Shown here: piece after piece, positions 47,516 to 63,573 of the stretch
How positions within the stretch are numbered: the first letter of the stretch is position 1
Layout: every line of letters starts with the position of its first letter
DNA from: Jiella sonneratiae
GTDB taxonomy: Bacteria; Pseudomonadota; Alphaproteobacteria; Rhizobiales; Rhizobiaceae
DNA length: 64,000 nucleotides
NCBI RefSeq assembly: GCF_017353515.1
Contig: NZ_JAFMPY010000007.1
Span: forward strand, 62,001 to 126,000
Direction of reading: 5' to 3'
Position numbers and translations under genes: made by a program
Notes under the pieces: generated by a model
What the model was told of the DNA's origin: nothing
The model's database searches: none
What the model saw: only the letters and a program-made list of their open reading frames with translations

Positions 47516-48342
47516 AGCCGGCCCCCTTCGATTTCGTCAGGGCCGACAGTCTCGGCGAAGCGCTGGAGGCGCTCCACGAGGCGGGGGACGAGGCGCGGGT
47601 GATCGCCGGCGGCCAGTCGCTGGTGCCGATGCTCAACATGCGGCTCGCGCGGCCCTCGGTTCTGGTCGACGTCATGCGGATCCGGGAGCTTTGCCGGATC
47701 GAGGAGCGCAAGGGGCAGATCGTCGTCGGCGCCGCGGTGAAGCAGGTCGAGCTGGAGCGCTGGTCGCCGCTCGCCGCGCTGCTTCCTCTGGTCGCTTCGG
47801 CACTGCCCTGGGTCGGTCATGCCCAGACGCGATCGCGCGGCACGGTCTGCGGCTCGCTCGCCCATGCCGATCCGAGCGCCGAGCTGCCGCTCGCCCTTCT
47901 GGCGCTCGGCGGCGAGGTGCATCTGCGCAATCGCCGCAAGAAACGTGTCCTGCCGGCCTCCGCCTTCTTCATGGGCATGATGGCGACCGCCGTCGAACCC
48001 GGCGAGATGATCGAGGCGGTCGCCTTTCCGAGCCATCCGATGGGAACCGGAACCGCTTTCAACGAGGTCGCGCGTCGGCACGGCGACTTCGCCATCGTCG
48101 CCTGCGCGGCGATCGCACGGGCGGACGGCACGAACCGCCTCGCCGTCGGCGGCGTTGCCGATACGCCGCAGGCGATCGAGCTGCCGGACCCGGCCGACGA
48201 CGGCTTCGAGGACGCTCTCAACGAATTCGCCTGGAGCCTCGGCGCCCGCGACGACCTGCATGCCAGCGCCCGCTACCGCCGCGATCTCGTCCGCTCGCTC
48301 GGGCGCCAAACCGTCGAGGAGGCCATCGCATGGCGAAGCTGA
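47512..48342 (+). CDS. hmfB: molybdenum hydroxylase FAD-binding subunit, probable furoyl-CoA dehydrogenase
   Basis: A 276-residue CoxM-type flavin subunit. FAD-binding motifs are ARVIAGGQSLVPMLNMRLA and TRSRGTVCGSLAHADPSAE. There is no 4Fe-4S insertion, which argues against 4-hydroxybenzoyl-CoA reductase. The ATG overlaps the large-subunit stop (ATGA), and the 3' end overlaps the next gene by 13 bases. It passes electrons from the Fe-S subunit to the acceptor. Confidence 0.78.
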   Translation: MKPAPFDFVRADSLGEALEALHEAGDEARVIAGGQSLVPMLNMRLARPSVLVDVMRIRELCRIEERKGQIVVGAAVKQVELERWSPLAALLPLVASALPWVGHAQTRSRGTVCGSLAHADPSAELPLALLALGGEVHLRNRRKKRVLPASAFFMGMMATAVEPGEMIEAVAFPSHPMGTGTAFNEVARRHGDFAIVACAAIARADGTNRLAVGGVADTPQAIELPDPADDGFEDALNEFAWSLGARDDLHASARYRRDLVRSLGRQTVEEAIAWRS

Positions 48343-48839
48343 GCCGCGAGGCAAGCCACGAGGTCCGCTTTCGCCTCAACGGGCGAAACGTCACGGCGCA
48401 GGCTCCGGCGCGCATGCTGCTGACCGACCTTCTGCGCCACGTCCTGGGCGAGACCGGCACGCATGTCGGCTGCGAGCACGGCGTCTGTGGCGCCTGCACG
48501 GTGCAGCTCGACGGCGAACCGGTGCGTGCCTGCCTGATGCTCGCGGCACAGGCCGAAGGCGCCGACATCCGCACCGTCGAGGGGCTGGAGCTTGCGCCGG
48601 GCGCGCTCTCGCCGCTCCAGGCCGCGTTCCGCGAGCATTTCGCGCTGCAATGCGGCTTCTGCACCGCCGGCATCCTGATGAGCCTCGACGCGCTGCTTGA
48701 GCGCGCGCCTGATGCCTCCGAGGAGACCATCCGGGAGCATCTGTCCGGGCACCTTTGCCGATGCACCGGCTACACGCCGATCGTGAAGGCGGCGCTCGCC
48801 GCGCAGGCGCAATTGAAGGAGGAGGCCGCGAATGCTTGA
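48330..48839 (+). CDS. hmfC: molybdenum hydroxylase 2Fe-2S subunit, probable furoyl-CoA dehydrogenase
   Basis: A 169-residue CoxS-type protein with both [2Fe-2S] sites. The plant-ferredoxin site is CEHGVCGACTVQLDG plus a later Cys (VRACLM), and the second is QCGFCTAG with CRCTGYTPIV. Together with the overlapping large and FAD subunits it forms the trimeric hydroxylase. It overlaps the CoA ligase gene by 8 bases, so the operon is tightly coupled. Confidence 0.8.
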   Translation: MAKLSREASHEVRFRLNGRNVTAQAPARMLLTDLLRHVLGETGTHVGCEHGVCGACTVQLDGEPVRACLMLAAQAEGADIRTVEGLELAPGALSPLQAAFREHFALQCGFCTAGILMSLDALLERAPDASEETIREHLSGHLCRCTGYTPIVKAALAAQAQLKEEAANA

Positions 48840-50367
48840 CCTTGGAACCAGCCTGATCGCCAGCGTCGAACGCGATCCGACCGCGCTCGCGATCTCCGAC
48901 GGCGACCTCGACCTGACCTATGGCGAATGGTTCGCGAAGATCTCGGCCCTGGTGGACGGCCTCGGCACGATGGGCCTGAAGCCCGGCGACCACGTCCTGA
49001 CCGTCATGCAGAACCGCTGGGAGAACGCCTCGCTGCACTGGGCCTGCCAGCTGGCGGGCCTGATCGTCACGCCGATCAACTGGCGTGCCAAGCCCGACGA
49101 GGTCGACTACGCCCTGGAGGACAGCGAAGCGAGAGCGGTCTTCTATCAGGACGTCTCCGCCGAGGCCGTCTCCACGTCCGGAAAGGCTCAGAACCTGCCA
49201 CGAGTGATGGCGGGCAAGGCCGAGGGCGGCGCGGACTCGCTCTCTGACATGCTGTCGGGCAGCGCAGCGGACGCTTCTCCGAGGGCATCGGCCGAGGACT
49301 GGTCGCTGATGCTCTACACCTCGGGCACGACCTCGCGTCCGAAGGGCGTGCCGCGTCGGCACCGCGCCGAGCGCGCGGCGGCTCTCGCCCATGTGGCGCA
49401 GAACCTCTACCGCCACGGCGAGCGGACCCTCGGCGTCATGCCGCTCTACCACACCATGGGGGTGCGGTCGCTGCTCGCCTCCTCGCTGATCGGCGGCGCC
49501 TTCGTCTGCCTGCGGCGCTTCGACGTCGCGGGAGCGCTCGAGACGATCGAGGCGAAGAAGGTCACCAACCTCTATCTCGTGCCGACGCTCTATCACGACA
49601 TCATCCATCACCAGGCGTTCACCAGGCAGAAGGTCGCCTCGGTCACCAAGCTCGGCTTCGCCGGCGCCTCGATGACCGACGGGCTGATGAAGAAGCTGAA
49701 TGCTGCCTTCGAGCCGGAGCTCTTCGTCAATCACTACGGATCTTCCGAGGTCTATACCTGCACGATCGACCAGAACGCGCCGCTGAAGCCGGGCTCGGCA
49801 GGCCGATCCGGCCTCAACCAGCTGATCCGCGTGGTGCCGCTCGGCGCCAATGACGCCGAGACACGGGCCAAGCCCGGCGAGGAGGGCGAGATCGTCGCGC
49901 TGCTCAAGGGCGACGAGGCCTTCGAGGGCTACTGGAAGCGTCCCGAGGCGACGGCGAAGGCGCTGCGGGGCGGCTGGTACTTCACCGGCGACACCGGCTA
50001 TTTCGACGAGGATGGCGACCTCTTCGTCACCGGTCGCGCCGACGACATGATCATCACCGGCGGCGAGAACGTCTCGCCCGTGGAGGTCGAGAGCTGCCTG
50101 TCGCTGCATCCGGCCGTCGCCGAGGTCGCCGTCGTCGGGCTCCCGGACGAGCGCTGGGGCAAGATCGTCACGGCCTTCGTCAAGCGTTCGCAGCCCGTCG
50201 AGGAGGCCGATCTCGACGCCCACTGCAAGACCTCCGGCCTGGCGAATTTCCGGCGCCCGCGCGCCTATGTCTTCGTCGACGAGATCCCGAAATCGCCGGT
50301 CGGCAAGCTGCTGCGCCGCAAGCTGGTGGCCGGAGAATACCAGGCCGAGACGGCACGGCCGGCCTGA
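48832..50367 (+). CDS. hmfD: AMP-forming acyl-CoA ligase, probable 2-furoate-CoA ligase
   Basis: A 511-residue ANL-superfamily enzyme. The P-loop is LMLYTSGTTSRPKGVPRRH, with the A5-type NHYGSSEVYTC, the hinge GRADDMIITGGENVSPVE, and the catalytic Lys in PKSPVGKLLRRKL. It activates a carboxylate as its CoA thioester. The substrate is inferred from the downstream hydroxylase and crotonase set; benzoate or a related acid is the main alternative. Confidence 0.78.
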   Translation: MLDLGTSLIASVERDPTALAISDGDLDLTYGEWFAKISALVDGLGTMGLKPGDHVLTVMQNRWENASLHWACQLAGLIVTPINWRAKPDEVDYALEDSEARAVFYQDVSAEAVSTSGKAQNLPRVMAGKAEGGADSLSDMLSGSAADASPRASAEDWSLMLYTSGTTSRPKGVPRRHRAERAAALAHVAQNLYRHGERTLGVMPLYHTMGVRSLLASSLIGGAFVCLRRFDVAGALETIEAKKVTNLYLVPTLYHDIIHHQAFTRQKVASVTKLGFAGASMTDGLMKKLNAAFEPELFVNHYGSSEVYTCTIDQNAPLKPGSAGRSGLNQLIRVVPLGANDAETRAKPGEEGEIVALLKGDEAFEGYWKRPEATAKALRGGWYFTGDTGYFDEDGDLFVTGRADDMIITGGENVSPVEVESCLSLHPAVAEVAVVGLPDERWGKIVTAFVKRSQPVEEADLDAHCKTSGLANFRRPRAYVFVDEIPKSPVGKLLRRKLVAGEYQAETARPA

Positions 50368-50411
50368 GGCCGGCACTTTCCCTTTCCAGACATTCAAGGA
50401 CGACCAGACCC

Positions 50412-51218
50412 ATGAGCGAGACCTACAGCTTCACCGATCCGCGCCTTGCCGAACTCGACGGCTTCAAGGTGACCATCGATCCCGCCAAAAAGCGCGCCGA
50501 CGTGACGCTTTCGCGCCCGCCGCTCAACGTCATCTCGATGCCGCAGCGCGACCAGCTGCGCCTCGTCTTCGAGACCCTCGACGCGGACGAGCGCGTGCGC
50601 ATCGTCGTCCTGTCGGGCGAGGGCGAGCACTTCTCGTCCGGCGGCAACATCAAGGGCTTCATGGAGGCGAGCCCCGAGCACGTCTCCAAGCTCGCCTGGA
50701 ACGTCGCCGCGCCGGCCCGCTGCTCCAAGCCGGTGATCGCGGCCAATCGCGGCTACACTTTCGGCGTCGGCTTCGAGATCTCGCTCGCCTGCGATTTCCG
50801 CATCGTCTCGCAGACCTGCTTCTACGCCCTGCCCGAGCAGAAGCTCGGCCAGATTCCGGGCTCCGGCGGTTCCGCACGGTTGCAGAAGATCGTCGGCGTC
50901 ACCCGCACCAAGGACATCGTGATGCGCTCCAAGCGCATCCCCGGGAAGACGGCCGTGGAATGGGGCATCGCCACCGAATGCGTCGCCGACGGCGAACTGG
51001 AAGCGACGGTCGACGCGCTGGTGGACGAGCTCCTCGAGTTCTCGCCGCTCGCCCAGCGCACGGCGAAGAAGATGCTGAACGAAACCGACGACGCCTTCCT
51101 GACGACGGCGATCGAGCTCGAGGGGCTGAACTACAGCCGCCTGCGCCAGTCCGAGGATTTCAAGGAAGGCGTCGAAGCCTTTCACGCAAAGCGAAAGCCG
51201 AACTTCACGGGGCGCTGA
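50412..51218 (+). CDS. hmfE: crotonase-family protein, probable 2-oxoglutaroyl-CoA hydrolase
   Basis: A 268-residue enoyl-CoA hydratase/isomerase-fold protein. The oxyanion-hole strands are HFSSGGNIKGF and GYTFGVGFEISLACDFR, followed by PEQKLGQIPGSGGSARL. In the furoate pathway the crotonase-family HmfE releases 2-oxoglutarate from its CoA thioester. It starts 44 bp after the ligase gene with AAGGACG as the ribosome-binding site. Activity is assigned by position. Confidence 0.72.
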   Translation: MSETYSFTDPRLAELDGFKVTIDPAKKRADVTLSRPPLNVISMPQRDQLRLVFETLDADERVRIVVLSGEGEHFSSGGNIKGFMEASPEHVSKLAWNVAAPARCSKPVIAANRGYTFGVGFEISLACDFRIVSQTCFYALPEQKLGQIPGSGGSARLQKIVGVTRTKDIVMRSKRIPGKTAVEWGIATECVADGELEATVDALVDELLEFSPLAQRTAKKMLNETDDAFLTTAIELEGLNYSRLRQSEDFKEGVEAFHAKRKPNFTGR

Positions 51219-51289
51219 GGGAGGAGCGTCGGCGGCGTGCACGGGCGTCGCTGCCGGGGCCGGAAGTCGAATTTCACAGGGAGGCAGAC

Positions 51290-52558
51290 ATGGACGCAAG
51301 CAAGCGAGGATTCATCGAACCGGGACCGGGGATCGCATCCGGCCTCCGGGATCTGCCGGCGAACCTCAATCTGAAGACGGGCAGCGCCGGTCTCGTCGCC
51401 GCGATCTTCGGCTGCTCCGGCCCGGCGCTCATCGTCATCGGTGCGGCGGGGACCGGCCATCTGACCAACGGCCAGACGGTCGCCTGGCTGCTGGCGATCT
51501 ACGGGCTCGGCGGGCTGATCAGCTTCGTCATGGCGCTGCACTACCGGATGCCCATCACCGGCGCCTATTCGATTCCCGGCGCCGCGCTGGTGGCGGGGTC
51601 GCTCGCGACCTTCCCGTTCGACCAGGCCGTCGGCGCCTTCGTCATGGCCGGCGTCATCGTGCTCGTCCTCGGCGTCACGGGGCTGATCGGCAAGGTGATG
51701 CGCTGGCTGCCGATGCCGATCGTCATGGCGATGATCGCCGGGGCGCTGATCCGTTTCGGCATCGGTGCGGTCACCGCGATCGACAAGCTGCCGCTCGTCG
51801 TCGGCGCCGCGATCGTCGCGTTCTTCCTGTCGATGCGCTTCGTCAAGGTCGTGCCGCCTGTGCTGTCGGCGCTGGTGGTCGGGCTGATCGCGGTCGCCCT
51901 GACCGGGTCGTTCGGGACGAACGACGCCGGCATCAGCTTCGTGGCGCCGGAATTCACCGCGCCGGCCTTCACGCTCGACGCTTTCCTCGCGATCGCCGTG
52001 CCGCTCGCCATCCTGGTGGTGGGCGCCGAGAACGCCCAGGCGACCGGCGTCCTCCTGGCGGAAGACTACCCCGCGCCGGTCAACGCCATGACGATCATTT
52101 CCGGCGTCGGCGGCATCCTTGCGGGGTTTCTGGGCGGCCACAACGCCAACATCGCCGGGCCGATGACGGCGATCTGCTCGTCCGACCAGGCGGGCGAGGA
52201 CAAGCGGGGGCGCTATGCCGCGACCGTCGTCAACGGCGTTCTCTTCGCCGGCTTCGGCATCTTCGCCGGCGCGGTGGTGCCGCTCGTCCTGATGCTGCCG
52301 GGCCCGCTCATCGGCGCGGTGGCGGGGCTTGCGATGATCAACGTTCTGGTGATGGCCTTCCAGTCGGCTTTTTCGAAAGCCGCGGGATTCCAGATCGGCG
52401 CCTTCGTCGCCCTGGTGGTTGCGATGTCGAACGTCGCGATCCTCGGCATCAGCGCGCCGTTCTGGGCGCTGTTCGCGGGCGCCGTCGTCTCGGCGCTGGT
52501 CGAGTGGCCTGCACCTGAGAAGACACGGCCGACGACCTCGGCGACGCCGGCCGGCTGA
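51290..52558 (+). CDS. BenE-family carboxylate permease
   Basis: A 422-residue, roughly 12-helix permease of the benzoate:H+ symporter family. Key blocks are GCSGPALIVIGAAGTGHLT, ALHYRMPITGAYSIPGAA, VGAENAQATGVLLAEDY and GGHNANIAGPMTAICSSDQAG. GGGAGG lies upstream of the ATG at 51290. It follows the furoate genes with a 71-bp gap, and is a good candidate for uptake of the pathway acid, whether furoate or benzoate-like. Confidence 0.85.
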   Translation: MDASKRGFIEPGPGIASGLRDLPANLNLKTGSAGLVAAIFGCSGPALIVIGAAGTGHLTNGQTVAWLLAIYGLGGLISFVMALHYRMPITGAYSIPGAALVAGSLATFPFDQAVGAFVMAGVIVLVLGVTGLIGKVMRWLPMPIVMAMIAGALIRFGIGAVTAIDKLPLVVGAAIVAFFLSMRFVKVVPPVLSALVVGLIAVALTGSFGTNDAGISFVAPEFTAPAFTLDAFLAIAVPLAILVVGAENAQATGVLLAEDYPAPVNAMTIISGVGGILAGFLGGHNANIAGPMTAICSSDQAGEDKRGRYAATVVNGVLFAGFGIFAGAVVPLVLMLPGPLIGAVAGLAMINVLVMAFQSAFSKAAGFQIGAFVALVVAMSNVAILGISAPFWALFAGAVVSALVEWPAPEKTRPTTSATPAG

Positions 52559-52648: not shown

Positions 52649-53101
52649 GTGGCGCAGGAACTCTATTTCGACGATCTCGACGTCGGACGCCGCTTCGAGA
52701 GCGAGCCGTTCGCCGTCACGGCGGAGGCCATCAAGGCTTTTGCGGAGAGCTACGATCCGCAGCCATTCCATCTCGACGAGAACGCGGCGGCGGACGGCTT
52801 CTTCGGCGGGCTGGTCGCGAGCGGCTGGCACGTCGCCGCCCTGACCATGCGCCGCTTCGTCTTGGAGGGCCTTCCCGTCGCAGGCGGTCTCATCGGCGCC
52901 GGGGCAGAGCTCCAATGGCTCCGCGCCACGAGGCCCGGCGACACGCTTCGGGTGTTCAGCGAGATCCTCGAATGCCGCCCGTCGCGGAGCCGGCCGACCC
53001 GCGGCACGGTGACCATCCGCAGCGAGACGCGCAATCAGCACGGCGCGGTCGTCCAGGTCATGACCACGCGGATCGTCGTGCCTCGCCGGGAACCTGCCTG
53101 A
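52649..53101 (+). CDS. MaoC-like hydratase/dehydratase
   Basis: A 150-residue hot-dog-fold protein starting at GTG, preceded by AAAGG. The hydratase signature is FAESYDPQPFHLDENAA (Asp and His of the R-hydratase motif), then FGGLVASGWHVAAL. It would hydrate an enoyl-CoA. It ends 50 bp from a convergent TRAP gene. It is not part of the described five-gene furoate set. Confidence 0.85.
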   Translation: MAQELYFDDLDVGRRFESEPFAVTAEAIKAFAESYDPQPFHLDENAAADGFFGGLVASGWHVAALTMRRFVLEGLPVAGGLIGAGAELQWLRATRPGDTLRVFSEILECRPSRSRPTRGTVTIRSETRNQHGAVVQVMTTRIVVPRREPA

Positions 53102-53151: not shown

Positions 53152-55059
53152 TCACCCCATCGCCTTCCGCCCCTGCAGCGCTCTGGTCTGGAAAGCCCAG
53201 GCACCCAGCGCCACAATGATCGCGAAACAGGCGAGCGTCGAGACGAGCCCCGGCAGGACGCTGCAGATCCCGGCGGCCAGAAAGACGCCGCGCGACCAAG
53301 CCGGAAGCGGGCGGAACAGCCAGCCGATCGTGGCGGCGGCGATCGCCAGGAAGCCCATGACGACGTTCGTCATCGCCCAGACCGAGTCGAGCGGCGATCC
53401 AATGAGCAGCAGTCCGGGATGGACGACGGCCGCGAACGGGATGACGAAGCCCGGAAGCGACAGCGAAAAGGCCCGCCACCCGGTCTCGGAGGCGGATGCC
53501 CCGGTGATCGAGGCGGCGGCGTAGGCCGCAAGTGCCACGGGCGGCGTCACCATGGACAGGATCGCGAAATAGAAGATGAAGAAATGCGCGACCAGCGGCT
53601 CGACCCCGAGGCTTGAAAGGCTCGGCGCGAGCAGGATCGCGGCCATGATATAGGCGGAGGTCGTCGGCATGCCGGCTCCGAGAACCAGGCTCGACAGCAT
53701 CGCGAGGACGAGGAGGAGCGGGACCTGACCGGCGGCAACCGTCACCATGAAGCTCGTGAACTTGGTCCCGAGGCCGGTGAAGCTGATGACGGCGACCGCG
53801 ATGCCGGCCAGAGCGCAAGGCAGGGCGACCGTGACTGCGCGCTGCGCCGAGACCACCAGCCCCTCGACAACGGCGATCGGGTTCTGGCGCGTCGCCTTGC
53901 GCAGCGTCCCGACGACCACGGTGACGGCGCAGGCTTCGATCGCCGCACCCTCGACCGGATAGCCGGCCACGATCCGGTAGGCGAGCCACATCAGGGGAAC
54001 GAGGAGATGGCCGCGTTGCGAAAGAACCGACGCCATCGGGGTCTCCACAGCGCCCCGTTCTGGACGGGCGCCGCGCCGCCGAGCCTCGAGATCGACCATG
54101 ATGAGGAGCGCGATGAAGTAGGCCGCCGCCGGCAGGATCGCGGCGAAGACGATGGTCTGATAGGGCATCTGCAGAAAGTCCGCCATGATGAAGGCGGCGG
54201 CCCCCATGACCGGTGGAACGAGCTGCGCGCCCGTCGAGGCGGCGGCCTCGACGGCTCCCGCGAAACGCAGATCGTAGCCACTCCTGCGCATCAGCGGGAT
54301 GGTGAAGATGCCGGTCGACATGACGTTGGCGACGGCGCTCCCCGAGACGCTGCCCAGGAGGCCAGACGAGGTGACGGCGGCCTTGGCCGGTCCGCCGGTT
54401 CGCCGGCCCGTGAGCGTGAGCGCCAGGTCGATGATCAGCCGCCCGCCGCCATAGACGTCGTAGATCGCCGCGAAGAGGATGAAGTAGAAGACGGTCGAGA
54501 CCGACACGCCGACCGGCACGCCGAAGAGCCCCTGCTGCGACAGGAACTGTGAATCGATGAAGCTTTCGAGCCCTGAAAAGCGGTGTGCGAAGACGCCGGG
54601 CAGGTAAGGTCCGGCGAAGAAGTAGACCACGAAAGCCGCGGCGAAGATCGTCAGGCCCCAGCCGAGATATAGCTTGCCCCCGACGAACAGGAGCACGATC
54701 AGCAGAATGCCGAGAGCGTAGTCGGCCGTCGCCACCGGATCGAGGCCTGGAATGCGCTCGCTCATCAGGAATTCGGCGTTCCAGGCAATGTATGCGCCGG
54801 GTCCGAGCGCCAACAACGCAGGTACCAGCCAGAGCGCACGTCCCGCCCGCGACGGCGCCTGCCCCGCCTGCATGGCGAAGGCGAGCGACACGGCGAAGGC
54901 GACATGGATGCCGCGTTGGGCGAGGGTGTCGATCTGCGGCCAGATCGCGAACGCGATCTGGCCGATCGTCCAGGCGAGCGCGATGAGCGCGGCGGGAGCG
55001 AGAAGATCGCTCCATCCGAAGGGGCGCTGACCGGCGTCCGCGGTGTCCGTCGTCGGCAT
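53152..55059 (-). CDS. fused TRAP transporter permease (DctQ-DctM, TAXI type)
   Basis: A 635-residue membrane protein joining the small and large TRAP subunits. About four N-terminal helices are followed by the DctM-like part with PVGVSVSTVFYFILFAAIYD, SGLLGSVSGSAVANVMSTG, PPVMGAAAFIMADFL and VLGAGMPTTSAYIMAA. These fused permeases work with TAXI-type binding proteins, and one is encoded 21 bp upstream. Substrate unknown. Confidence 0.92.
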   Translation of the reverse strand: MPTTDTADAGQRPFGWSDLLAPAALIALAWTIGQIAFAIWPQIDTLAQRGIHVAFAVSLAFAMQAGQAPSRAGRALWLVPALLALGPGAYIAWNAEFLMSERIPGLDPVATADYALGILLIVLLFVGGKLYLGWGLTIFAAAFVVYFFAGPYLPGVFAHRFSGLESFIDSQFLSQQGLFGVPVGVSVSTVFYFILFAAIYDVYGGGRLIIDLALTLTGRRTGGPAKAAVTSSGLLGSVSGSAVANVMSTGIFTIPLMRRSGYDLRFAGAVEAAASTGAQLVPPVMGAAAFIMADFLQMPYQTIVFAAILPAAAYFIALLIMVDLEARRRGARPERGAVETPMASVLSQRGHLLVPLMWLAYRIVAGYPVEGAAIEACAVTVVVGTLRKATRQNPIAVVEGLVVSAQRAVTVALPCALAGIAVAVISFTGLGTKFTSFMVTVAAGQVPLLLVLAMLSSLVLGAGMPTTSAYIMAAILLAPSLSSLGVEPLVAHFFIFYFAILSMVTPPVALAAYAAASITGASASETGWRAFSLSLPGFVIPFAAVVHPGLLLIGSPLDSVWAMTNVVMGFLAIAAATIGWLFRPLPAWSRGVFLAAGICSVLPGLVSTLACFAIIVALGAWAFQTRALQGRKAMG

Positions 55060-55080
55060 CGCTTCGCTACCCGCCGCCGA

Positions 55081-56064
55081 TCAGTTCAGCCAGCCTTTCT
55101 CGCGATAATATCGCTCGGCGCCGGCATGGAGCGGCAGACCATTGTTCTCCATCTTCCAGGCGCCGTTCTCACAGCTGAAATTCGACAGCGCCTTGTGTGC
55201 CTGCTTGAGAGTGTCGGCGCTCTCGCAGATCGTCTTGACGATCTCGTAGGCGAGATCGTCGGACATCTCGGTGCTGGCGAAGAGGGTCGTCGTCGTGCCG
55301 GGGAGGTCGAGGTCGGAGTCCTGCCCGGGAAATGTTCCGGATGGCAGGGTTGCGACCTGCCAGCCGTAAGAGTCGCGCATCGCGTCGAGCTCGTCCTGCG
55401 AGGGTTGCAGGAAAGTCGAGGGCGTCGTCTGGGCGATCTCGGTGATGCCGGGATGGCCACGAGTGCCAACCTGGATGAACACGTCGCCGGAACCCGAGGC
55501 GAAGCGTGACTTGACCATGTCGAACGACCCGAATTCGTAGCTGCCGCCGGAGGAAGAGAGCCGATCCTCGCCTTCGCCCGCGATGTCCAGAAGTTGCTCG
55601 CCTCCGAAGGAGCCGATGCTGCCACGGCGCAGGAGCGTCACGTTCGCTTCCGGATGGGACTCGAAATAGTCGTCGAGCTTGCCCGACACCTCCGCGCCTC
55701 GGGCCATGGGCACGAGATAGTACTGGTCCCAGCCGCCGACGAGCGCGCGCAGATTGTCGAGCGGTGCGTCATAAGCGTATTTGCCCTCGAGCGCCCAGCT
55801 TCCCACCACGGCCATGCCGAAAGCCAGATCCGCGCGGCCTTTCGAGACCAGAGCCGGATTGCCGATGCCGCCGGCGATGGGCGGGGCGTCTACCGTCGAG
55901 CCGGCGGGCAGCTTCTTCTGCAACAGCTCGGACAGATTGACCGCGTAGACGTACCAGCTGGACCCCTGCTGGAATGAAGCGACCGTCAGGTTGACGGCGG
56001 CGTCCTGCGCCCATGCCGAACTTCCCGCCGCGATCAGCGCCGCACCGAACAGCGCGGGGGTCAA
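55081..56064 (-). CDS. TAXI-family TRAP solute-binding protein
   Basis: A 327-residue binding protein with the family features ASFQQGSSWYVYAVNLSELL, GGIGNPALVSKGRADLAFG and the C-terminal LPLHAGAERYYREKGW. No ATG lies near the 5' end. The given start is a TTG at 56064, which yields a signal peptide without basic residues. Reading 33 bases further back to an in-frame ATA at 56097 adds TTIIKRYCAR, a proper basic n-region, and GGGAGG lies 4 bases before that ATA. An upstream in-frame TAG limits extension. Confidence 0.85.
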   Translation of the reverse strand: MTPALFGAALIAAGSSAWAQDAAVNLTVASFQQGSSWYVYAVNLSELLQKKLPAGSTVDAPPIAGGIGNPALVSKGRADLAFGMAVVGSWALEGKYAYDAPLDNLRALVGGWDQYYLVPMARGAEVSGKLDDYFESHPEANVTLLRRGSIGSFGGEQLLDIAGEGEDRLSSSGGSYEFGSFDMVKSRFASGSGDVFIQVGTRGHPGITEIAQTTPSTFLQPSQDELDAMRDSYGWQVATLPSGTFPGQDSDLDLPGTTTTLFASTEMSDDLAYEIVKTICESADTLKQAHKALSNFSCENGAWKMENNGLPLHAGAERYYREKGWLN

Positions 56065-56391: not shown

Positions 56392-57849
56392 TCAGGCGCC
56401 GACGACGCCGACGTTCTGATAGACGTGCTTCAACTCGCAGAAGTCGAGAAGCGCGTCGAAACCGTGCAGCCGTCCGAGGCCGGAGCGCCGGTATCCGCCG
56501 GTCTCGGCCTCGGCGAAGAGCTTGTTGTGGTCGTTGATCCAGACGGTACCGTCGCGCAGCGCCCGCGCGATCCGCCAGGCGGCGTCGCCGCGATTGGTCC
56601 AGACCGACGCCGACAGGCCGTAGACCGTGTCGTTGGCCTTGGCGACCGCCTCGGCCTCGTCGGCGAAGGGCTCGATCACCAGCATCGGGCCGAAGATCTC
56701 CTCCTGGCAGAAGTCGGCCTTCGGATCGCGATGCGCGACGAGCGACGGCGTCAGGAAGGCCGAGCCTGCCGGGGCATCCTCCAGGACGTCGTGGCGGAGC
56801 ACCACCTCGTCCGCCGCGTCGAACACCGCCTCGATCCGCCGCCTGACGCGGTCGCGGGCGCCGACGGTGATCAGCGGGCCCATCTCGGTGCCCGCCTCGA
56901 GGCCGTTGCCGACCCTGATGCCGGACAGCGCGGCGGCAAGGGCGGACTTCGTTTCCGCAAAGCGGCTCTCGTGAACCAGCACGCGCCGGGCGGCGGTGCA
57001 TTGCTGGCCGGAGATGATGGTCGCCGCCGCTGCGAGTTTCGGGGCGATCGCGGCGACGTCGGCATCCTCGAGGACGACGCAGCAGTTCTTGCCGCCGAGT
57101 TCCAGCGAAAGCTTCTTCATCGTCGGGGCGGCGGCGGCCATGATCGCCTGGCCGACCTCGTTGGAGCCGGTGAAGGAGATGACGTCGACGTCGGGGCTCT
57201 CGACCATGGCCTGGGCGACGGCATGGCCGCTTTCCGGCAGCACCGAGACGGCGCCTTCGGGAAGCTGCGGCAGGTCGAGGAGCGGGGCGAGGCAGCGCTC
57301 GGTGAAGGCCGCAGTCTGGGGCGCCGGCTTGACGATGGAGGTGCAGCCGGCGGCGATCGCCGGCGCCAGCGAGCGAATGAGCAGGACGGCCGGCGCGTTC
57401 CAGGGAACGATGATGCCGGCGACGCCGGCCGGCTCGCGCAGCATCACCGAGATTTCGCCGGGGGCCACCTCCATGGCGTGGCCGGGATTGTGGCGGGCGA
57501 GCCCCGCATAATAGCGGATCTCGCTCACCGCAGCGGCGATCTCCCCCTTGGCGGCGAAAAGCGGCTTGCCGTTGGTGAGCGTGAGCCATCGGGCGGCATC
57601 CTCCATGGCCGCCTCGAGACCGCTCGCCCAGGCCAGCAGGATGTCCTGGCGCAGCCGCGGCGACTGGGCCCAGAGGGAACGGTCGAAGCATCGCCGCGCC
57701 GCCTCGATCGCCGCCTGCGTCGCCTCCGCGCCGCTGTCGGCGAGGTCTCCGAGATGCGCCCCCGTGGCGGGGTCGGTGGAGGCGAAGGTCCCGGCGGCGG
57801 CGAGCCGCCGCCGACCGATCCGGGCGCAGGCGAGGAGGTCAGCTGGCAT
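56392..57849 (-). CDS. NAD(P)-dependent aldehyde dehydrogenase
   Basis: A 485-residue ALDH-superfamily enzyme. The active site is complete: Asn151 (VPWNAP), Lys174 (IVKPAPQT), Glu250 (LSLELGGKN) and nucleophile Cys284 (SGQQCTAAR), plus the cofactor loop FTGSNEVGQ. The C-terminal QEEIFGPMLVIEPF is standard. Its ATG at 57849 lies 11 bases inside the 3' end of the TRAP permease gene, so it is the last gene of that operon. The aldehyde is unknown; a furan or aromatic aldehyde would suit the neighbourhood. Confidence 0.9.
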   Translation of the reverse strand: MPADLLACARIGRRRLAAAGTFASTDPATGAHLGDLADSGAEATQAAIEAARRCFDRSLWAQSPRLRQDILLAWASGLEAAMEDAARWLTLTNGKPLFAAKGEIAAAVSEIRYYAGLARHNPGHAMEVAPGEISVMLREPAGVAGIIVPWNAPAVLLIRSLAPAIAAGCTSIVKPAPQTAAFTERCLAPLLDLPQLPEGAVSVLPESGHAVAQAMVESPDVDVISFTGSNEVGQAIMAAAAPTMKKLSLELGGKNCCVVLEDADVAAIAPKLAAAATIISGQQCTAARRVLVHESRFAETKSALAAALSGIRVGNGLEAGTEMGPLITVGARDRVRRRIEAVFDAADEVVLRHDVLEDAPAGSAFLTPSLVAHRDPKADFCQEEIFGPMLVIEPFADEAEAVAKANDTVYGLSASVWTNRGDAAWRIARALRDGTVWINDHNKLFAEAETGGYRRSGLGRLHGFDALLDFCELKHVYQNVGVVGA

Positions 57850-59758
57850 GGCGGGGCATCTCCTGATGGGCTGGCTTTCCCGTTTCGGCGGGAAGGATCG
57901 CGGCGTGCGTCGCCGCCACCGCATCGTCCTCCGGACGCCGCAGCTGCAGCGCCAGCATGCCGACGAGAAGCGCGGCGCCGACGATGTCGGTGATGAATTC
58001 CGGCGAGATCAGGAGGATGGCAGCGATCAGGGCGACGCCCCGCTCGATCGTCGTCGAGCGCCGGAAATGCGTGCCGACGAAGGCGCCGGCGATGCCGTAG
58101 ATGCCGAAGGCGCAGGTCGCCGAAACCCAGATGATTTCCCACCAGTCGCCGTGCATCACCAGAGCGGGGTTGTAGGCGAAGGCGAAGGGAATGAGGAAGC
58201 CGGGAAGCGTCAGCTTGAAGGCCTGGATGCCGGTTGTGGTGGAGCTGGTCTGGGCGAGCGCGGCGGCCGCGTAGGAGGCGAGCGCCACCGGCGGCGTCAC
58301 GAAGGACAGGAGCGCGAAGTAGAAGATGAAGAGGTGGACCGAGAGGATGTAGAGGTGGAGCTGGGTCAGCGCCGGCGCCATCAGGATCGCGACCATGATG
58401 TAGGCGGAAACGGTCGGCATTCCCATGCCGAGGATGATGCAGGCGACCATGACCGCGACGAGGGAGAGGATCAGGCTTCCCTGGGAGAGGGCGAGGATGA
58501 AGCCGGTGAACTTCAGCCCGATGCCGGTCTGCACGATGACGCCGATGATCAGGCCGGCCATCGCGCAGGGCACGGCGACGATCAGGATCGACCGGGCCGA
58601 CTTCTCGAAGCCGTCGACGACCTTCATCAGCGTCAGCCGGGTCTCCCTGGTGACCATCGAGACGGCGACGGTCGCGACCAGCGCGTAGATCGCCGCCATG
58701 GCGAGCGAGGATCCGTCGATCATCATGTAGACGAGGATGACGAGCGGAATGAGCAGATGCAGGCGCTTCCAAAGCCCGGTCTTCACGTCCGGCATCTCCT
58801 CGCCCTTCAGGCCGCGCAGCCCGTCGCGCTTGGCCGTCAGGTCGACCGCGAAGAGGATGGCGAGGTAGTAGAGCAGCGCCGGGATCGCCGCGCCGAACAG
58901 GATGGTGACGTAGTCGAGGCCCGTCAGCTCGACCATGACGAAGGCCGCCGCCCCCATGATCGGCGGCATCAGCTGCCCGCCCGTGGAGGCGGCTGCCTCG
59001 ACCGCCGCGGCAAAGGGCGGCTTGTAGCCGAAGCGCCGCATCAAAGGGATGGTGAAGGTGCCTGTCCCGACGACGTTGGCGACGGCCGAGCCGTTGATCG
59101 AGCCCATCAGGCCCGAGGCGATGACGGCGCTCTTGGCGGGCCCGCCACGGGTGCGGCCGGTCGCCCAGAAGGCGAGGTCGATGAACAGCTTGCCGCCGCC
59201 GGAGATCTCCAGGAAGGTGGCGAACAGGATGAAATAGAAGATGTAGCCGACGACGGCGCCGAGGGGGATGCCGAAGATGCCGTTGTTCGACAGCACCTGG
59301 ACGTCGACGAAGCGCGACAGCGACATTCCCGAATGGCCGATCGAGATCGGCAGGAAATTGCCGAAGAAGGCATAGGCGGTGAACAGCAGCGCGATGACGA
59401 AGAGGCCCCATCCGGCCGCCCGCCGGGTCGCCTCGAACAGGGTGACCACCAGCGCCGTGCCGGCGACCAGGTCGCCCGTCGTCGGCCGGTCGACGAAGGC
59501 GATGCGGGTCACGTAGCGCTCGAAGTTCAGGGCCATGAAGACGGCCCAGCCGATCGTCGCGGCGATCAGCAGGACGTCGGCCGCGCGGGCCGCCGTTCCA
59601 TGCTCGGCCAGATCCTCCCCGAATACCAGGACGAGGACCGCGGCGAGGAACAGCACGTAATGCAGGATCAGCGGCATCGGCTCGACCAGGATGGTCCAGA
59701 GCTGCAGCACGGTGAGCCCGATGGCGATCCAGCGTATGGCGAACTGCAAGGTCTTCAT
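57839..59758 (-). CDS. fused TRAP transporter permease (TAXI type), second system
   Basis: A 639-residue protein paralogous to the permease at 53152. Blocks include IPLGAVVGYIFYFILFATFL, SGLMGSINGSAVANVVGTG, PPIMGAAAFVMVEL and ILGMGMPTVSAYIMVAIL. The start at 59758 (MKTLQFAIRWIAIGLTV) opens a first membrane helix but has a weak ribosome-binding site. It is preceded by a strong intercistronic hairpin and the TAXI binding-protein gene. Confidence 0.92.
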   Translation of the reverse strand: MKTLQFAIRWIAIGLTVLQLWTILVEPMPLILHYVLFLAAVLVLVFGEDLAEHGTAARAADVLLIAATIGWAVFMALNFERYVTRIAFVDRPTTGDLVAGTALVVTLFEATRRAAGWGLFVIALLFTAYAFFGNFLPISIGHSGMSLSRFVDVQVLSNNGIFGIPLGAVVGYIFYFILFATFLEISGGGKLFIDLAFWATGRTRGGPAKSAVIASGLMGSINGSAVANVVGTGTFTIPLMRRFGYKPPFAAAVEAAASTGGQLMPPIMGAAAFVMVELTGLDYVTILFGAAIPALLYYLAILFAVDLTAKRDGLRGLKGEEMPDVKTGLWKRLHLLIPLVILVYMMIDGSSLAMAAIYALVATVAVSMVTRETRLTLMKVVDGFEKSARSILIVAVPCAMAGLIIGVIVQTGIGLKFTGFILALSQGSLILSLVAVMVACIILGMGMPTVSAYIMVAILMAPALTQLHLYILSVHLFIFYFALLSFVTPPVALASYAAAALAQTSSTTTGIQAFKLTLPGFLIPFAFAYNPALVMHGDWWEIIWVSATCAFGIYGIAGAFVGTHFRRSTTIERGVALIAAILLISPEFITDIVGAALLVGMLALQLRRPEDDAVAATHAAILPAETGKPAHQEMPRHAS

Positions 59759-59904
59759 GGGGTTTCGTTCCGACGACTGTCCCTGGGGCGCCGGCATCTG
59801 GCGAAAGGCCGGGCGTTTGCGTGGATTGAGGGGGTGCCTGCTCGATGAGCCGAGGGTGCCTGCGGCCGGCAAAGGTTCCGCCCGGCGATGGGCGTCGAGA
59901 GATG

Positions 59905-59936
59905 GAGGGCGGGGCCGGCAGATCGGCCCCGCCCTC
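59905..59936 (-). terminator. 13-bp perfect hairpin between TAXI and permease genes
   Basis: Stem GAGGGCGGGGCCG / CGGCCCCGCCCTC with a 6-base loop, starting 6 bases after the TAXI stop. There is no T-run on the coding strand. It most likely protects the binding-protein mRNA or lowers permease expression. It is the strongest hairpin seen in the window. Confidence 0.75.
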
Positions 59937-59942
59937 GCATCC

Positions 59943-60941
59943 TCACTTGAGCCAGCCCTGCTCCTTGAAGAAGCGCTCGGCGCCCGGATGCAGCGGCACG
60001 CCGCCGTTGCGGCCGGGATCGCCGGCGGTCTTGCAGTCGAACTCGGCAAGGCTCGAATGCGCCGCGCGCACCTTGTCCTGGTTCTCGCAGATCGCCTTGG
60101 TGATCGTGTAGGCCACGTCGTCGGACATGTTCGCATTGGCGATCACGCCGGTCGGATAGCCGACCGACGGCACCGCCTTGTCGACGCCCTCGAACTCGCC
60201 GGCGCGGATCGAAAGTCCGGTCTGAAGTCCGTATTTGTCCGCGATCTCCTTCATCTGCTCTTCGCCGAGCGGGATGAAGGTGATGTCGCCGCCGAGCGCC
60301 AGCTCCATCACGTCCGGCTGGCGATAGCCGATATTGTGGATGAACATGTCGGCCTGGCCGTCGCGCAGCTGCTGGATCGCCACCGGCAGGTCGATATGGG
60401 TGACCCGGCCGCCGGCCTTCTCGATGTCCTCGTAGCCGAGGCCGTAGCTTTCGAGCGCCATGCGGGCAAGCGCCTCGCCGGCCCCGCCGATCTGGACGGT
60501 CACGAGGCGGACCGGCTTGGTCTTGACGTCCGCGAGGCTCTCGATCCCGGCACCCTTGCGCACCACGATGCCGAGACGATGCGGAATGTTGAGGCCGCCG
60601 ACCAGCGCGCGGATGTTCTCGTGCGGTTCCTTGAAGCTGACGATACCCTGGCGGGCCCAGTTCGAAAGCGCCGAGAAGGACAGGCCGAGATCGGCGTCGC
60701 CGCGGTCGACGAGGATAGGATTGCCGACGCCGCCCTGATAGGGCAGCACCTCGACGGTCGAGCCCTCCGGCAGCGCCTTCTGGGCGATGTCGGCGAGACT
60801 CGTCGCGTAGATGTACCAGCTTCCGCCGACGTTGAACGACGCGAATTTAAGGTTGACCGGTTCCTTGTCCGCGGCCAGCGCGCCGGTCGCCGCCAACAGG
60901 ATGGCGCCGGCTGCAAGAAATGTTCGTCTCAGGATATTCAT
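59943..60941 (-). CDS. TAXI-family TRAP solute-binding protein, second system
   Basis: A 332-residue periplasmic protein. Signal peptide: RRTFLAAGAILLAATGALAA. Family blocks are ASFNVGGSWYIYATSLADIA, GGVGNPILVDRGDADLGLS and VPLHPGAERFFKEQGWLK. It shares the length and C-terminal motif of the TAXI protein at 55081 but differs enough to suggest another ligand. It begins 41 bp after the enolase-superfamily gene. GGGAGG lies upstream of the ATG. Confidence 0.93.
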   Translation of the reverse strand: MNILRRTFLAAGAILLAATGALAADKEPVNLKFASFNVGGSWYIYATSLADIAQKALPEGSTVEVLPYQGGVGNPILVDRGDADLGLSFSALSNWARQGIVSFKEPHENIRALVGGLNIPHRLGIVVRKGAGIESLADVKTKPVRLVTVQIGGAGEALARMALESYGLGYEDIEKAGGRVTHIDLPVAIQQLRDGQADMFIHNIGYRQPDVMELALGGDITFIPLGEEQMKEIADKYGLQTGLSIRAGEFEGVDKAVPSVGYPTGVIANANMSDDVAYTITKAICENQDKVRAAHSSLAEFDCKTAGDPGRNGGVPLHPGAERFFKEQGWLK

Positions 60942-60982
60942 TTGCGATTTTCCTCCCTTCGCAATCGAATGAAACGGGCGGG

Positions 60983-62155
60983 TCAGGTGCGGTAGGCGGA
61001 TCCCGGGATCGGTGGATGGGCCCTGACGAAATCCATGTCCACCTCGACGCCGAGACCCGGCGCCTCCCCGGGGGTCATCGTGCCTTCCCTCGAAAGCACC
61101 GGCGCCCCACGCACGAGCTCGTCGCGGAGCGGATTGATCCTGCTGGCATCGGCTTCGAGAAAGCCGCCGTTCTCGATGGCGCAGAGAAAGTGGAGGCTCG
61201 CCGCGGCGTTCAGCCCGGTCATCGAGGCGTGCGGATGCACCGGCAGGCCGGCGGCGAGCGCCAGCGCGGCGATCCTCGTCGCCTCGGTCACGCCCCCGAC
61301 CTTGGAAAGGTCCGGCTGGATGACGTCGGTCGCGCCGTCGGCGATCAGGGCGGCGAATTCCTGGCGGGCGAAGAGGTTTTCGCCGGCCGCCAGCGGCAAC
61401 CGCGCACGGGCGGCGAGATCCGCCATGCGGCGGCGCTCCAGCGGCATGAACGGCTCTTCCAGCCAGGCGAAACCAAGGTCGGCGAGAGCGTCGGCGGCCC
61501 TTGCCGCGTCGCCCGGCGCATAGAGCGAGTTCGCGTCCGCCATCAGCGTGACGTCCGTTCCGACGGCCTCGCGCACGGCCCCGGCGCGGGCGATGTCTCG
61601 GTCGATCCGGTCGCCGATGCGCAGCTTGAGCGCCCGGTAGCCCCGCGCGACGAGGCCCCGCGCCTCCTCGACCAGGCGGTCAGGTGTCTCCCAGCCGAGC
61701 GCGACGCCGCCGGCATAGGCGGCAACCGGCCGGGGCGCGCCCCCGAGAAGCCGGCAGAGCGGCCAGCCGGCGGCCTTGGCCCGGATGTCCCAGAGTGCGC
61801 AGTCGATCCCCGACATCGCGAGCGCGGCAGCCGCCCCGCTGCCCTGCGTCAGCATCTGCGCCCGGGCCATGCGGCGCCACAGGCCCATGGTGTCGCAGGC
61901 GTCCGCGCCCTTCAGCATGGCGGCGAGATTGTCGTTGACGATCGACGCGACGGCGATGTGGGCGCGGCCATGATGGGCCTCGCCGAAACCCTCGATCCCG
62001 TCCTCGGTGCGCACCCTCACGACGACGGCGTCGCGCTTGATCGTGCGGCCGACGCCGAGCGTCACCTGTGCGGCTTCCGGCAGGGGATAGGACAGCGCGA
62101 AGGCCTCGACGGCGGCGATGCGCAGGGCGCCCGGGGCCGTCGCCGGGCCGCTCAC
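60983..62155 (-). CDS. mandelate racemase/muconate lactonizing enzyme family protein
   Basis: A 390-residue enolase-superfamily enzyme with a GTG start overlapping the UbiD-gene stop (GTGA). Metal ligands Asp207 (LMADANS), Glu233 (WLEEPF) and Glu259 (AAGENL) and the His-Asp dyad Asp282 (IQPDLSKVGG) / His309 (VHPHAS) reproduce the residue spacing of mandelate racemase. The usual KxK base motif reads Lys177-Leu-Arg179 instead. It would abstract a proton alpha to a carboxylate, giving racemisation, dehydration or cycloisomerisation; the substrate is unknown. Confidence 0.85.
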   Translation of the reverse strand: MSGPATAPGALRIAAVEAFALSYPLPEAAQVTLGVGRTIKRDAVVVRVRTEDGIEGFGEAHHGRAHIAVASIVNDNLAAMLKGADACDTMGLWRRMARAQMLTQGSGAAAALAMSGIDCALWDIRAKAAGWPLCRLLGGAPRPVAAYAGGVALGWETPDRLVEEARGLVARGYRALKLRIGDRIDRDIARAGAVREAVGTDVTLMADANSLYAPGDAARAADALADLGFAWLEEPFMPLERRRMADLAARARLPLAAGENLFARQEFAALIADGATDVIQPDLSKVGGVTEATRIAALALAAGLPVHPHASMTGLNAAASLHFLCAIENGGFLEADASRINPLRDELVRGAPVLSREGTMTPGEAPGLGVEVDMDFVRAHPPIPGSAYRT

Positions 62156-63573
62156 GACAGGACCTCGGCGAGCCTGGCCGCCGGGTCGAGGACGTCGTCG
62201 AGATCGATCGCTTCCTCCCCCGGCACCCTGATCCGGCGGAACCTGAATTCCGGCGCCTTGGCCGGCACCGTCGCGTCGAAGCCGGTCTTGCAGCCGAGCC
62301 CGTTGTCCGTCGAGGGATCGAGCTTCGAGCCCTGGCTGCCCGGGATCATCACCATGTCGCGGTCGGCCTGGAAACGGGTCGCGACGGCCCACTCGACCTC
62401 CGTCGGATCGTGAATGTCGACGTCCTCGTCGACCACCACCACGTGCTTGATGTCGTAATGGGCGGCGAGGGCGGCCAGGATGACGTTCTTCGCCTCGCCC
62501 GCCTCGCGCCGCCGCAGCTTGACGTGAAGGTGGTAGCGGCACACGCCGCCGCGCGACAGGTGCACGTCGACGACGCCGGGATGGCTGCGCCGCATCGTCG
62601 CGAGGATCGTCGCCTCGCGCGGGATCCCGCCGAGGAGAAGATGTTCGAGACCGCCCCCGACGATGGTGTGGAACAACGGCCTGGAGCGCGTCGTCACGCG
62701 GTCGACCTCGATCACGTGGCGGTCGTCGCGCTCGCCGTAATATTGCGGAAACTCCCCGAACGGGCCCTCCGGGGCGCGCCTGTTCGCCTTGAGACGTCCT
62801 TCGACGACGATCTCGGAACGGGCCGGGACGCGAAGCTCGGATCCCTTGCAGCGAACGACTTCGAGCGGGGCGCCGCAGAGGGCGCCGGCGATGCCGAGCT
62901 CGTCGAAGTCGATCGGCACGATCGCCTGGCTCGCGAGGAGGCAGGCCGGGCTCGCGCCGATGACGATGGCCACCGGAAGATCATGGCCGTCGGCTTCCGC
63001 GGCGTCGTTGAAGGCCAGCGTGTGCCGGGGCAGGAGCAGCGCGCCGAGCTCACGCGGGCCCGACAGCTGCAGGCGGTGGATCGCGACGTTCTGGGCGCCG
63101 GTCTTCGGATTGGCCGAGATCAGCAGTCCGGCGGTGATGTAGGCGCCGCTGTCGTGCTCGTTGTGGACCGGGATCGGCAAAAGGTCGGCGAGATCGAAGT
63201 CGTCTTCGTGGACGACCTCCTGGCACGGCGCGTTCTCGACCTCGACCGGGGCGAGGGGCCGCTGTTCCGCCGCCTGGAAGCGCTCCAGCAGCCGGTCCTC
63301 GGAAATGCCCAGCGCTTCCGCCATCCAGGCGCGGCGCGACAAGAGCCCAGAGACGACGGTTCCGGGATGTCCGGACGGATGGGGAAAGATCGTCGCCCGG
63401 TCGCCGTCGTTGCGGTTGGCGATGCCGGCGAGCATGAACCGCAGGTCGGTTTCCGGCCGGGCAATGGCCAGCCGGCCGGTCTCGTCCAGCCGCGTCAGCC
63501 AGCTCCGCAGGTCGAGATAGGCGTGCCGGGCCTCGTCCCGATCGGACTTTGCCGCTGCGACTGTCTGTTCCAC
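62152..63573 (-). CDS. UbiD-family prenylated-FMN-dependent decarboxylase
   Basis: A 473-residue UbiD-fold (de)carboxylase. The prFMN and catalytic residues are visible: NVAIHRLQL (Asn162, Arg167) and APEGPFGEFPQYYG (Glu269, Glu274), equivalent to the Arg-Glu-Glu set of fungal Fdc1. I chose the GTG at 63573 because GGGAGG lies 9 bases upstream; ATGs at 63621 and 63624 lack such a site. It is the first gene of a five-gene operon. HmfF, a relative, decarboxylates 2,5-furandicarboxylate to furoate. No UbiX-type prenyltransferase is in the window. Confidence 0.9.
   Translation of the reverse strand: MEQTVAAAKSDRDEARHAYLDLRSWLTRLDETGRLAIARPETDLRFMLAGIANRNDGDRATIFPHPSGHPGTVVSGLLSRRAWMAEALGISEDRLLERFQAAEQRPLAPVEVENAPCQEVVHEDDFDLADLLPIPVHNEHDSGAYITAGLLISANPKTGAQNVAIHRLQLSGPRELGALLLPRHTLAFNDAAEADGHDLPVAIVIGASPACLLASQAIVPIDFDELGIAGALCGAPLEVVRCKGSELRVPARSEIVVEGRLKANRRAPEGPFGEFPQYYGERDDRHVIEVDRVTTRSRPLFHTIVGGGLEHLLLGGIPREATILATMRRSHPGVVDVHLSRGGVCRYHLHVKLRRREAGEAKNVILAALAAHYDIKHVVVVDEDVDIHDPTEVEWAVATRFQADRDMVMIPGSQGSKLDPSTDNGLGCKTGFDATVPAKAPEFRFRRIRVPGEEAIDLDDVLDPAARLAEVLS

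Follow-up and report, generated by a model that had tools for sequence, protein, structure and literature searches.

An operon with an HmfF-like decarboxylase in Jiella sonneratiae: upper part of an hmf furan-catabolism island with a probable mandelate-type entry branch

Which acid is broken down by a compact bacterial operon that joins a UbiD-family decarboxylase, a mandelate-racemase-like (MR-like) enzyme, a TAXI-type tripartite ATP-independent periplasmic (TRAP) transporter and an aldehyde dehydrogenase (ALDH)? Such an operon lies in a 64,000-nucleotide stretch of the Jiella sonneratiae contig NZ_JAFMPY010000007.1 (positions 62,001 to 126,000), here called the window, and was analyzed together with its surroundings and with related loci in other genomes. 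We are confident that the core of the operon belongs to the known hmf route for 5-hydroxymethylfurfural (HMF), 2,5-furandicarboxylic acid (FDCA) and 2-furoate, with TAXI-TRAP as its importer. It is furthermore probable that, within an island of hmf furan-catabolism genes, the operon forms the upper arm, to which a mandelate-type entry branch has been added. Its genes are as follows (window coordinates).

56392..57849, or start at 57924, minus strand: ALDH (Pfam Aldedh, 438.1 bits)
57839..59761, minus strand: fused TRAP permease, TRAP1 (TIGR02123, 624.6 bits; cut-off 320.65)
59943..60941, minus strand: TAXI solute-binding protein, TAXI1 (TIGR02122, 178.5 bits; cut-off 84.35)
60983..62155, minus strand: MR-like enzyme of the enolase superfamily (Pfam MR_MLE_C, 207.9 bits, and MR_MLE_N)
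62152..63573, minus strand: HmfF-like UbiD-family decarboxylase dependent on prenylated FMN (prFMN), start codon uncertain (Pfam UbiD, 215.8 bits, and UbiD_C, 126.9 bits)
from about 63684 to 64000, plus strand: divergent LysR regulator, extending beyond the window end (Pfam HTH_1 and LysR_substrate)

All five minus-strand genes are open and score far above their Pfam family cut-offs. The original prediction had described five leftward genes of these families at these coordinates behind a divergent LysR gene, and one operon joining a prFMN-type decarboxylase, an enolase-superfamily enzyme, an importer and an ALDH; the family matches and open frames bear this out. Both overlaps it had named can be read in the sequence: the GTGA shared by the UbiD and MR-like genes is exact at 62155-62152 (GTG at 62155-62153, TGA at 62154-62152), and the 11-base overlap of the permease and ALDH genes at 57849-57839 holds with an ATG at 57849 and a TGA at 57841-57839.

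The best solved relative of the UbiD protein was 6h6v, which presumably derives from Pelotomaculum, with 412 bits over query positions 21 to 462, and the next different enzyme, AnInD, followed at 219 bits. The catalytic E-R-E residues (R167, E269 and E274) were kept in all 39 HmfF relatives of the survey described below. R319 aligns with R304 of HmfF, which we take to be a furan-pocket residue, and is partly diagnostic, occurring in 39 of 39 close relatives versus 21 of 59 other UbiDs. H311 aligns with H296 of HmfF and is also present in 51 of the 59 other, more distant UbiDs; it is thus no furan marker, and the aligned pocket residues were rejected as proof of furan specificity. Together, H311 and R319 agree with furan use without proving it. 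The solved protein 6h6v is HmfF and AnInD an indole-3-carboxylate decarboxylase (PMC8988006), and the HmfF histidine has been reported as key for furan substrates, numbered there H297 (PMC7976604). Assignments as VdcC, AroY or UbiD proper were discarded, as their scores were weaker or under cut-off. Shared features with 6h6v are the 412-bit match, the E-R-E residues and the counterparts of H296 and R304; the operon context differs. We predict that the window enzyme has the FDCA decarboxylase specificity of HmfF.

Further genes of a furan route lie within the window and, on the same contig, just past its end (stretch L007).

44531..47515, plus strand: HmfA-like molybdopterin subunit of furoyl-CoA dehydrogenase with a C-terminal CoxG domain (Pfam MoCoBD_1/2, Ald_Xan_dh_C and COXG)
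47512..48342, plus strand: HmfB-like FAD subunit (Pfam FAD_binding_5)
48345..48839, start approximate, plus strand: HmfC-like 2Fe-2S subunit (Pfam Fer2 and Fer2_2)
48832..50367, plus strand: HmfD-like acyl-CoA (furoyl-CoA) synthetase (Pfam AMP-binding)
50412..51218, plus strand: HmfE-like enoyl-CoA hydratase/hydrolase (Pfam ECH_1)
L007:6725-7303, after LysR: UbiX
L007, between UbiX and LldD: DUF2390 (TIGR02444) gene
L007:7934-9187: FMN-dependent 2-hydroxyacid dehydrogenase (LldD)
L007:9187-10866: thiamine diphosphate (ThDP) enzyme (NCBIfam PRK08327)

We infer the names HmfA to HmfE from family, gene order and cross-genome pattern, not from comparison with Cupriavidus basilensis sequences. In the NCBIfam search no model reached cut-off for the HmfA-like protein, and for HmfA, HmfD and HmfE other or generic names alone were offered, under cut-off. 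The chemistry of HmfF and HmfA to HmfE is established for characterized relatives, as tabulated in PMC12064950.

Related loci were surveyed by a contig scan of genomes, of which the best 80 loci were kept: 21 with 53 to 87% UbiD identity, called HmfF, and 59 with 31 to 41%, used as controls. Adding our own locus, 6 from further genome samples and 11 from 30 plasmid records gave 39 HmfF loci. Neighborhood counts were made by tblastn with thresholds set after the first neighborhoods had been viewed. The stretches differ in length and several of the loci share a genus, with many from Methylobacterium, two from Azospirillum and three from the window's own genus, so that the loci are not independent; Fisher values are descriptive, and the counts show a pattern, not a tested probability. 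At least three of hmfA to hmfE were found near HmfF in 26 of 39 loci versus 0 of 59 controls, UbiX in 35 versus 8, and an ALDH match of at least 50% in 23 (own included) versus none. HmfF of this degree of similarity is uncommon: counting our own genome, it was found in 4 of 397 genomes sampled at order level and in 5 of 398 sampled at phylum level. Of ten same-genus genomes, own included, three have this UbiD at E ≤ 1e-60. It is the HmfF-like UbiD, the hmfABCDE-like genes in the window, the nearby UbiX and the 26/39 versus 0/59 contrast on which the assignment to the HMF/FDCA/2-furoate route with a TAXI-TRAP importer is based.

The hmf pathways of C. basilensis HMF14 and Pseudomonas umsongensis GO16 share with our locus an HmfF-like UbiD, UbiX, LysR, ALDH, HmfABCDE-like genes and an importer. 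In contrast to them, the window has TAXI-TRAP importers and no match to the Methylobacterium major facilitator superfamily query; the MR-like enzyme, LldD and the ThDP enzyme are added, and no GMC (HmfH) or short-chain dehydrogenase/reductase (SDR) alcohol-oxidizing enzyme was matched in 35 kb of the locus at the tblastn thresholds used. The hmf island on plasmid pDSHI01 of Dinoroseobacter shibae (L103) shares the order UbiX-LysR//UbiD-ALDH as well as AraC, HmfABCDE and DUF2390, but has a DctP-type TRAP and an SDR, with no MR, LldD or ThDP-enzyme match in its stretch.

These results do not support the statement in the original prediction that no described pathway with this combination was known: the UbiD is HmfF-like, hmfABCDE lie 5 to 19 kb away in the same window, and the UbiD/UbiX/LysR/ALDH/hmfABCDE set recurs, as on pDSHI01. 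On account of the hmfABCDE-like genes, an entirely new pathway was also rejected. The prediction had taken in neither these genes (44531-51218) nor a second TAXI/TRAP pair (53152-56064) nor the UbiX, LldD and ThDP-enzyme genes past the window end. Its proposal of a new acid substrate held for the acid, and the novelty stays likely through the neighboring LldD and ThDP enzyme, which lay outside its view. The conserved co-occurrence of the five families it had looked to was not found in the two relatives of the same genus that have this UbiD: in Jiella avicenniae the order UbiD-TAXI-TRAP-ALDH is kept with no MR at that place, and the HmfF locus of a Fulvimarina sp. metagenome-assembled genome (MAG) reads UbiD-ALDH-SDR, with a TRAP of the DctP type and without MR or TAXI1.

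What LldD and the ThDP enzyme add was approached through their relatives and their distribution. The nearest single-domain solved relative of LldD was (S)-mandelate dehydrogenase (6bfg, 214 bits), followed by hydroxyacid oxidases and 4-hydroxymandelate oxidase; higher scores, 294 and 276 bits, came from two L-lactate oxidase chains of double length. The ThDP enzyme was closest to benzoylformate decarboxylase (6qsi), at a modest 118 bits. Both genes together were found in 8 of 39 HmfF loci, from five lineages, and in none of the 59 controls, and 8 of the 9 LldD-bearing HmfF loci also carry the ThDP enzyme. A GMC oxidoreductase was present in 16 and an SDR in 5 of the 39 loci; these 21 never coincide with the 8 LldD-ThDP loci, while 10 loci have neither (Fisher, 7e-4). 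A sodium:solute symporter (SSS) occurred in five HmfF loci, all among the eight.

The gene orders of these loci vary. Azospirillum sp. B510 (L116) has ALDH-LysR-UbiX // ThDP-LldD-SSS-HmfF-HmfA-B-C-D-E on opposite strands within about 16.5 kb. Methylobacterium dankookense and Methylobacterium sp. R2-1 (L023 and L027) have FAD dehydrogenase-SSS-LldD-ThDP-UbiX-ALDH-LysR // HmfF with no MR; the FAD dehydrogenase is GlcD-like, with D-2-hydroxyglutarate and D-lactate dehydrogenases among its solved kin. Prauserella (L026) has MR-SSS-ThDP-LldD-HmfF, and a Burkholderiaceae MAG (L035) MR-ALDH-TctC-LldD-ThDP-HmfF-UbiX. That different subfamilies occupy the same slot beside HmfF suggests recruitment for one function. 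Some loci have a racemase-like enzyme and others a second, D-type dehydrogenase, which is in keeping with a substrate that has an alpha-hydroxy-acid stereocenter.

Two loci also contain remnants. In L027, a 119-residue GMC match (65%) at 11522-11878 directly follows HmfF, in the slot of the full GMC gene of other Methylobacterium loci. Beside HmfF in L108 (14366-17395), a ThDP frame of 206 residues stands with a full-length TAXI frame and a permease whose coding sequence is broken into overlapping frames and includes a long Gly-Met repeat; this module looks like it is decaying. Both remnants are consistent with upper modules having been exchanged; L108 is also consistent with a link between a ThDP enzyme and a TAXI-TRAP.

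The mandelate pathway encoded by mdlABCD consists of a mandelate racemase, an FMN-dependent 2-hydroxyacid dehydrogenase, a ThDP enzyme and an ALDH. The same four enzyme families occur in one locus in J. sonneratiae and also in L035, while L026 falls short of the full set, with no ALDH match in its stretch. Differences from mdlABCD are the linkage to HmfF and hmf genes, the moderate similarity (the 214 and 118 bits given above) and a Lys-x-Arg motif in the MR-like enzyme.

We favor, with some confidence, a reading in which LldD and the ThDP enzyme provide an added hydroxyacid branch. Since the known HmfF reaction starts from a 2,5-diacid, the branch should start from a furan with a carboxylate and a glycolic side chain. 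TAXI-TRAP would import such an acid, most likely 5-(carboxy-hydroxymethyl)-2-furoate; the MR-like enzyme would interconvert its two enantiomers, LldD would oxidize one of them to the 2-oxo acid, the ThDP enzyme would decarboxylate this to the furan aldehyde, and ALDH would oxidize the aldehyde to FDCA. HmfF, with prFMN from the adjacent UbiX, would then yield 2-furoate and CO2, HmfD would form furoyl-CoA, HmfABC would hydroxylate it, and HmfE would help to deliver 2-oxoglutarate. Gene families, order and recurring co-occurrence are observed; the substrate and all steps upstream of FDCA are predictions drawn from them. An alternative substrate is 2-furylglycolate, which would bypass HmfF; furylglycolic acid has been made chemo-enzymatically from glucose via the fungal metabolite cortalcerone (PMC7910265). 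No description of a furan hydroxyacid entry branch was found in the open-licence literature, which is not proof of absence.

Several findings weigh against this branch, some concerning the LldD-ThDP module and others the MR-like enzyme. At least three hmf genes were found in the stretch at three of the eight LldD-ThDP loci (own, L033 and L116), L026 shows two, and four show none; the L026 stretch also has no UbiX or ALDH match. J. avicenniae (L033) and the two Azospirillum loci (L115 and L116) carry LldD and the ThDP enzyme with no MR or GlcD-type enzyme in the stretch, and GlcD-type genes (40 to 51%) occur elsewhere in all three same-genus genomes searched, hence are not special. At L035 and L026 the ThDP enzymes differ in kind from our own and are 40% identical to each other; that of L035 is PRK08199, with acetolactate synthases as nearest solved relatives, and the LldD of L035 is only 33% identical to ours. 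A ThDP-enzyme search of 385 class genomes gave 26 places, of which 15 were read out, some at contig ends; LldD was found at none of the 15. Three of these, from three genomes of one alphaproteobacterial genus (L134, L136 and L138, outside the 39), have CoA ligase-UbiD-ThDP with 57 to 58% UbiD identity and no LldD. The ThDP family is therefore broader, and its presence need not mean a hydroxyacid route.

Further occurrences of ThDP enzymes were noted. L134, L136 and L138 possibly represent a different UbiD/ThDP pathway; by eye, L136 also has molybdopterin oxidoreductase-, thiolase-, SDR- and FAD monooxygenase-like frames. One further ThDP place has distant UbiD matches alone (26 to 27%). At E ≤ 1e-100, a ThDP-enzyme match of 89% was found in J. 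avicenniae and one of 45% in genome G053, on a contig other than that of its HmfF; the Fulvimarina genome had none. A plasmid of Neorhizobium petrolearium (L113:10494-17990) carries ALDH-ThDP-LldD-ThDP-FAD oxidase and no UbiD in the stretch, indicating that the hydroxyacid module also exists apart from UbiD.

For the MR-like enzyme, the nearest solved relative was 3bjs (376 bits). Mandelate racemase has metal ligands D/E/E, a His-Asp dyad and a K-x-K motif whose second lysine acts as base. The D, E, E, D and H columns matching the ligands and dyad are invariant in eight aligned kin; all eight and a J. avicenniae paralogue have K-L-R in place of K-x-K, with arginine for the second catalytic lysine. 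The gene is rare (3 of 398 phylum-sample genomes at E ≤ 1e-90, own included), and for the other two hits (L125 and L126) no HmfF match was found in the stretches read. MR matches were counted in 4 of 39 HmfF loci: our own, L026, L035 and Cupriavidus KK10. The last was rejected as HmfF linked, lying about 15 kb from UbiD; its kin at 99% in two other Cupriavidus plasmids and 84% in Polaromonas have no UbiD match in their stretches. The three linked enzymes form no single clade. MR is missing at the HmfF loci of both same-genus relatives; genome-wide, J. avicenniae has one (49%; L144:9137-10357), on another contig near TctA/TctC matches and, by eye, an NAD-type hydroxyacid dehydrogenase frame, not near HmfF, and at E ≤ 1e-70 none was found in Fulvimarina or in G053. 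We therefore regard MR as optional at HmfF loci. Plasmids of Cupriavidus, Polaromonas and Shinella (L098 to L102) also carry genes of the 3bjs kind.

A dehydratase role for this enzyme is possible, and with it the explanation that a sugar-acid dehydratase was recruited by chance, the operon then serving two unrelated substrates. The best NCBIfam models, though far under cut-off, are galactonate and arabinonate dehydratases, Lys-x-Arg replaces Lys-x-Lys, and the surroundings of kin in Polaromonas and J. avicenniae hold hydroxyacid-dehydrogenase-like genes and genes of tripartite tricarboxylate transporters but no UbiD. However, MR, though rare, lies no more than about 6 kb from HmfF in three lineages (J. 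sonneratiae, Prauserella and the Burkholderiaceae MAG), in each case with LldD and a ThDP enzyme. We regard chance recruitment as rather unlikely; it may hold alongside the favored explanation of the other genes. That the enzyme is the racemase of the hydroxyacid branch is suggested tentatively by its context.

Could the locus instead be an ordinary pathway for HMF, 5-hydroxymethyl-2-furancarboxylic acid (HMFCA) and FDCA? TRAP would then import HMFCA or FDCA, LldD would replace GMC/SDR in oxidizing HMFCA to the formyl acid, ALDH would make FDCA and HmfF decarboxylate it, with the MR-like and ThDP enzymes as hitchhikers or serving other acids. The core does match the described HMF upper pathway, which comprises an HMFCA dehydrogenase, a 5-formyl-2-furancarboxylic acid dehydrogenase, HmfF, a cofactor-making accessory protein, LysR and an HMFCA transporter (PMC12064950). 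LldD-ThDP and GMC/SDR loci never overlap, as expected if they replace each other, and J. avicenniae has its HmfF locus without MR. On the other hand, the ThDP enzyme accompanies LldD in eight of nine LldD-bearing HmfF loci, and the GlcD-type enzyme, perhaps also MR, points to 2-hydroxyacids, whereas an alcohol oxidase alone needs none of these. This explanation appears unlikely. Highly improbable is a UbiD acting on another (hetero)aromatic acid, such as hydroxybenzoate, with the locus a genuine mandelate-type route whose substrate is a benzenoid or indolic glycolate: the family is versatile, AnInD being 36% identical to C. basilensis HmfF and yet acting on indole-3-carboxylate (PMC8988006), and a close UbiD stands in a different context in L134, L136 and L138, but HmfF is by far the closest solved relative and hmfABCDE adjoins.

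The remaining features of the locus are the following.

43499..44443, plus strand: AraC-family regulator beside hmfA (Pfam HTH_18)
51278..52558, start approximate, plus strand: BenE-type carboxylate transporter (Pfam BenE, 253 bits)
52649..53101, plus strand: MaoC-like hydratase (Pfam MaoC_dehydratas; 81% match in L013)
53152..55059, minus strand: second fused TRAP permease, TRAP2 (TIGR02123, 553.6 bits)
55081..56064, minus strand: second TAXI solute-binding protein, TAXI2 (TIGR02122, 125.1 bits)

AraC likewise adjoins hmfA in L019, L103 and L106, and a BenE-type gene stands beside hmfE also in L033 and L106. The nearest solved relative of TAXI1 was 1us4 (121 bits). Another genome of the order (L111) has relatives of TAXI2 (59%) and TRAP2 (69%) immediately next to HmfF, and the second pair of the window may therefore also import furan acids. 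Upstream, at 39044-43413, siderophore-interacting-protein-like, AraC-like and TonB-receptor-like open frames were seen by eye; these probably form an iron-uptake locus adjoining the hmf island. Past the window, L007:11284-18956 holds genes for an amidohydrolase (4-sulfomuconolactone hydrolase-like), HpaH, FAH, a flavin reductase, TctCBA-like and HpaI-like proteins, which look like a separate meta-cleavage type pathway. The HpaH/FAH/HpaI/TctCBA genes were rejected as part of the system, since the J. avicenniae stretches read upstream of its ThDP gene (L033 and L105) gave no match to them.

Taken across genomes, several lineages may repeatedly have joined a mandelate-type module (a racemase or paired L- and D-type dehydrogenases, a ThDP decarboxylase and ALDH) to HmfF/HmfABCDE. 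We propose this, a little short of calling it probable, as an undescribed pathway for furan-glycolic acids, including 5-(carboxy-hydroxymethyl)-2-furoate or 2-furylglycolate, in which the MR-like enzyme would be a new Lys-x-Arg 2-hydroxyacid racemase and TAXI-TRAP a furan-acid importer. The known hmf route matters for the removal of lignocellulose inhibitors and for FDCA bioplastics. If the hydroxyacid branch is real, it would supply enzymes for obtaining 5-formyl-2-furoate and FDCA from other starting compounds, and functions for a TAXI-TRAP, for an enolase-superfamily subgroup (the 3bjs kin) and for a ThDP-enzyme family whose present name is just "thiamine pyrophosphate-requiring protein." It would also show that the furan acids available to bacteria in nature include a further class.

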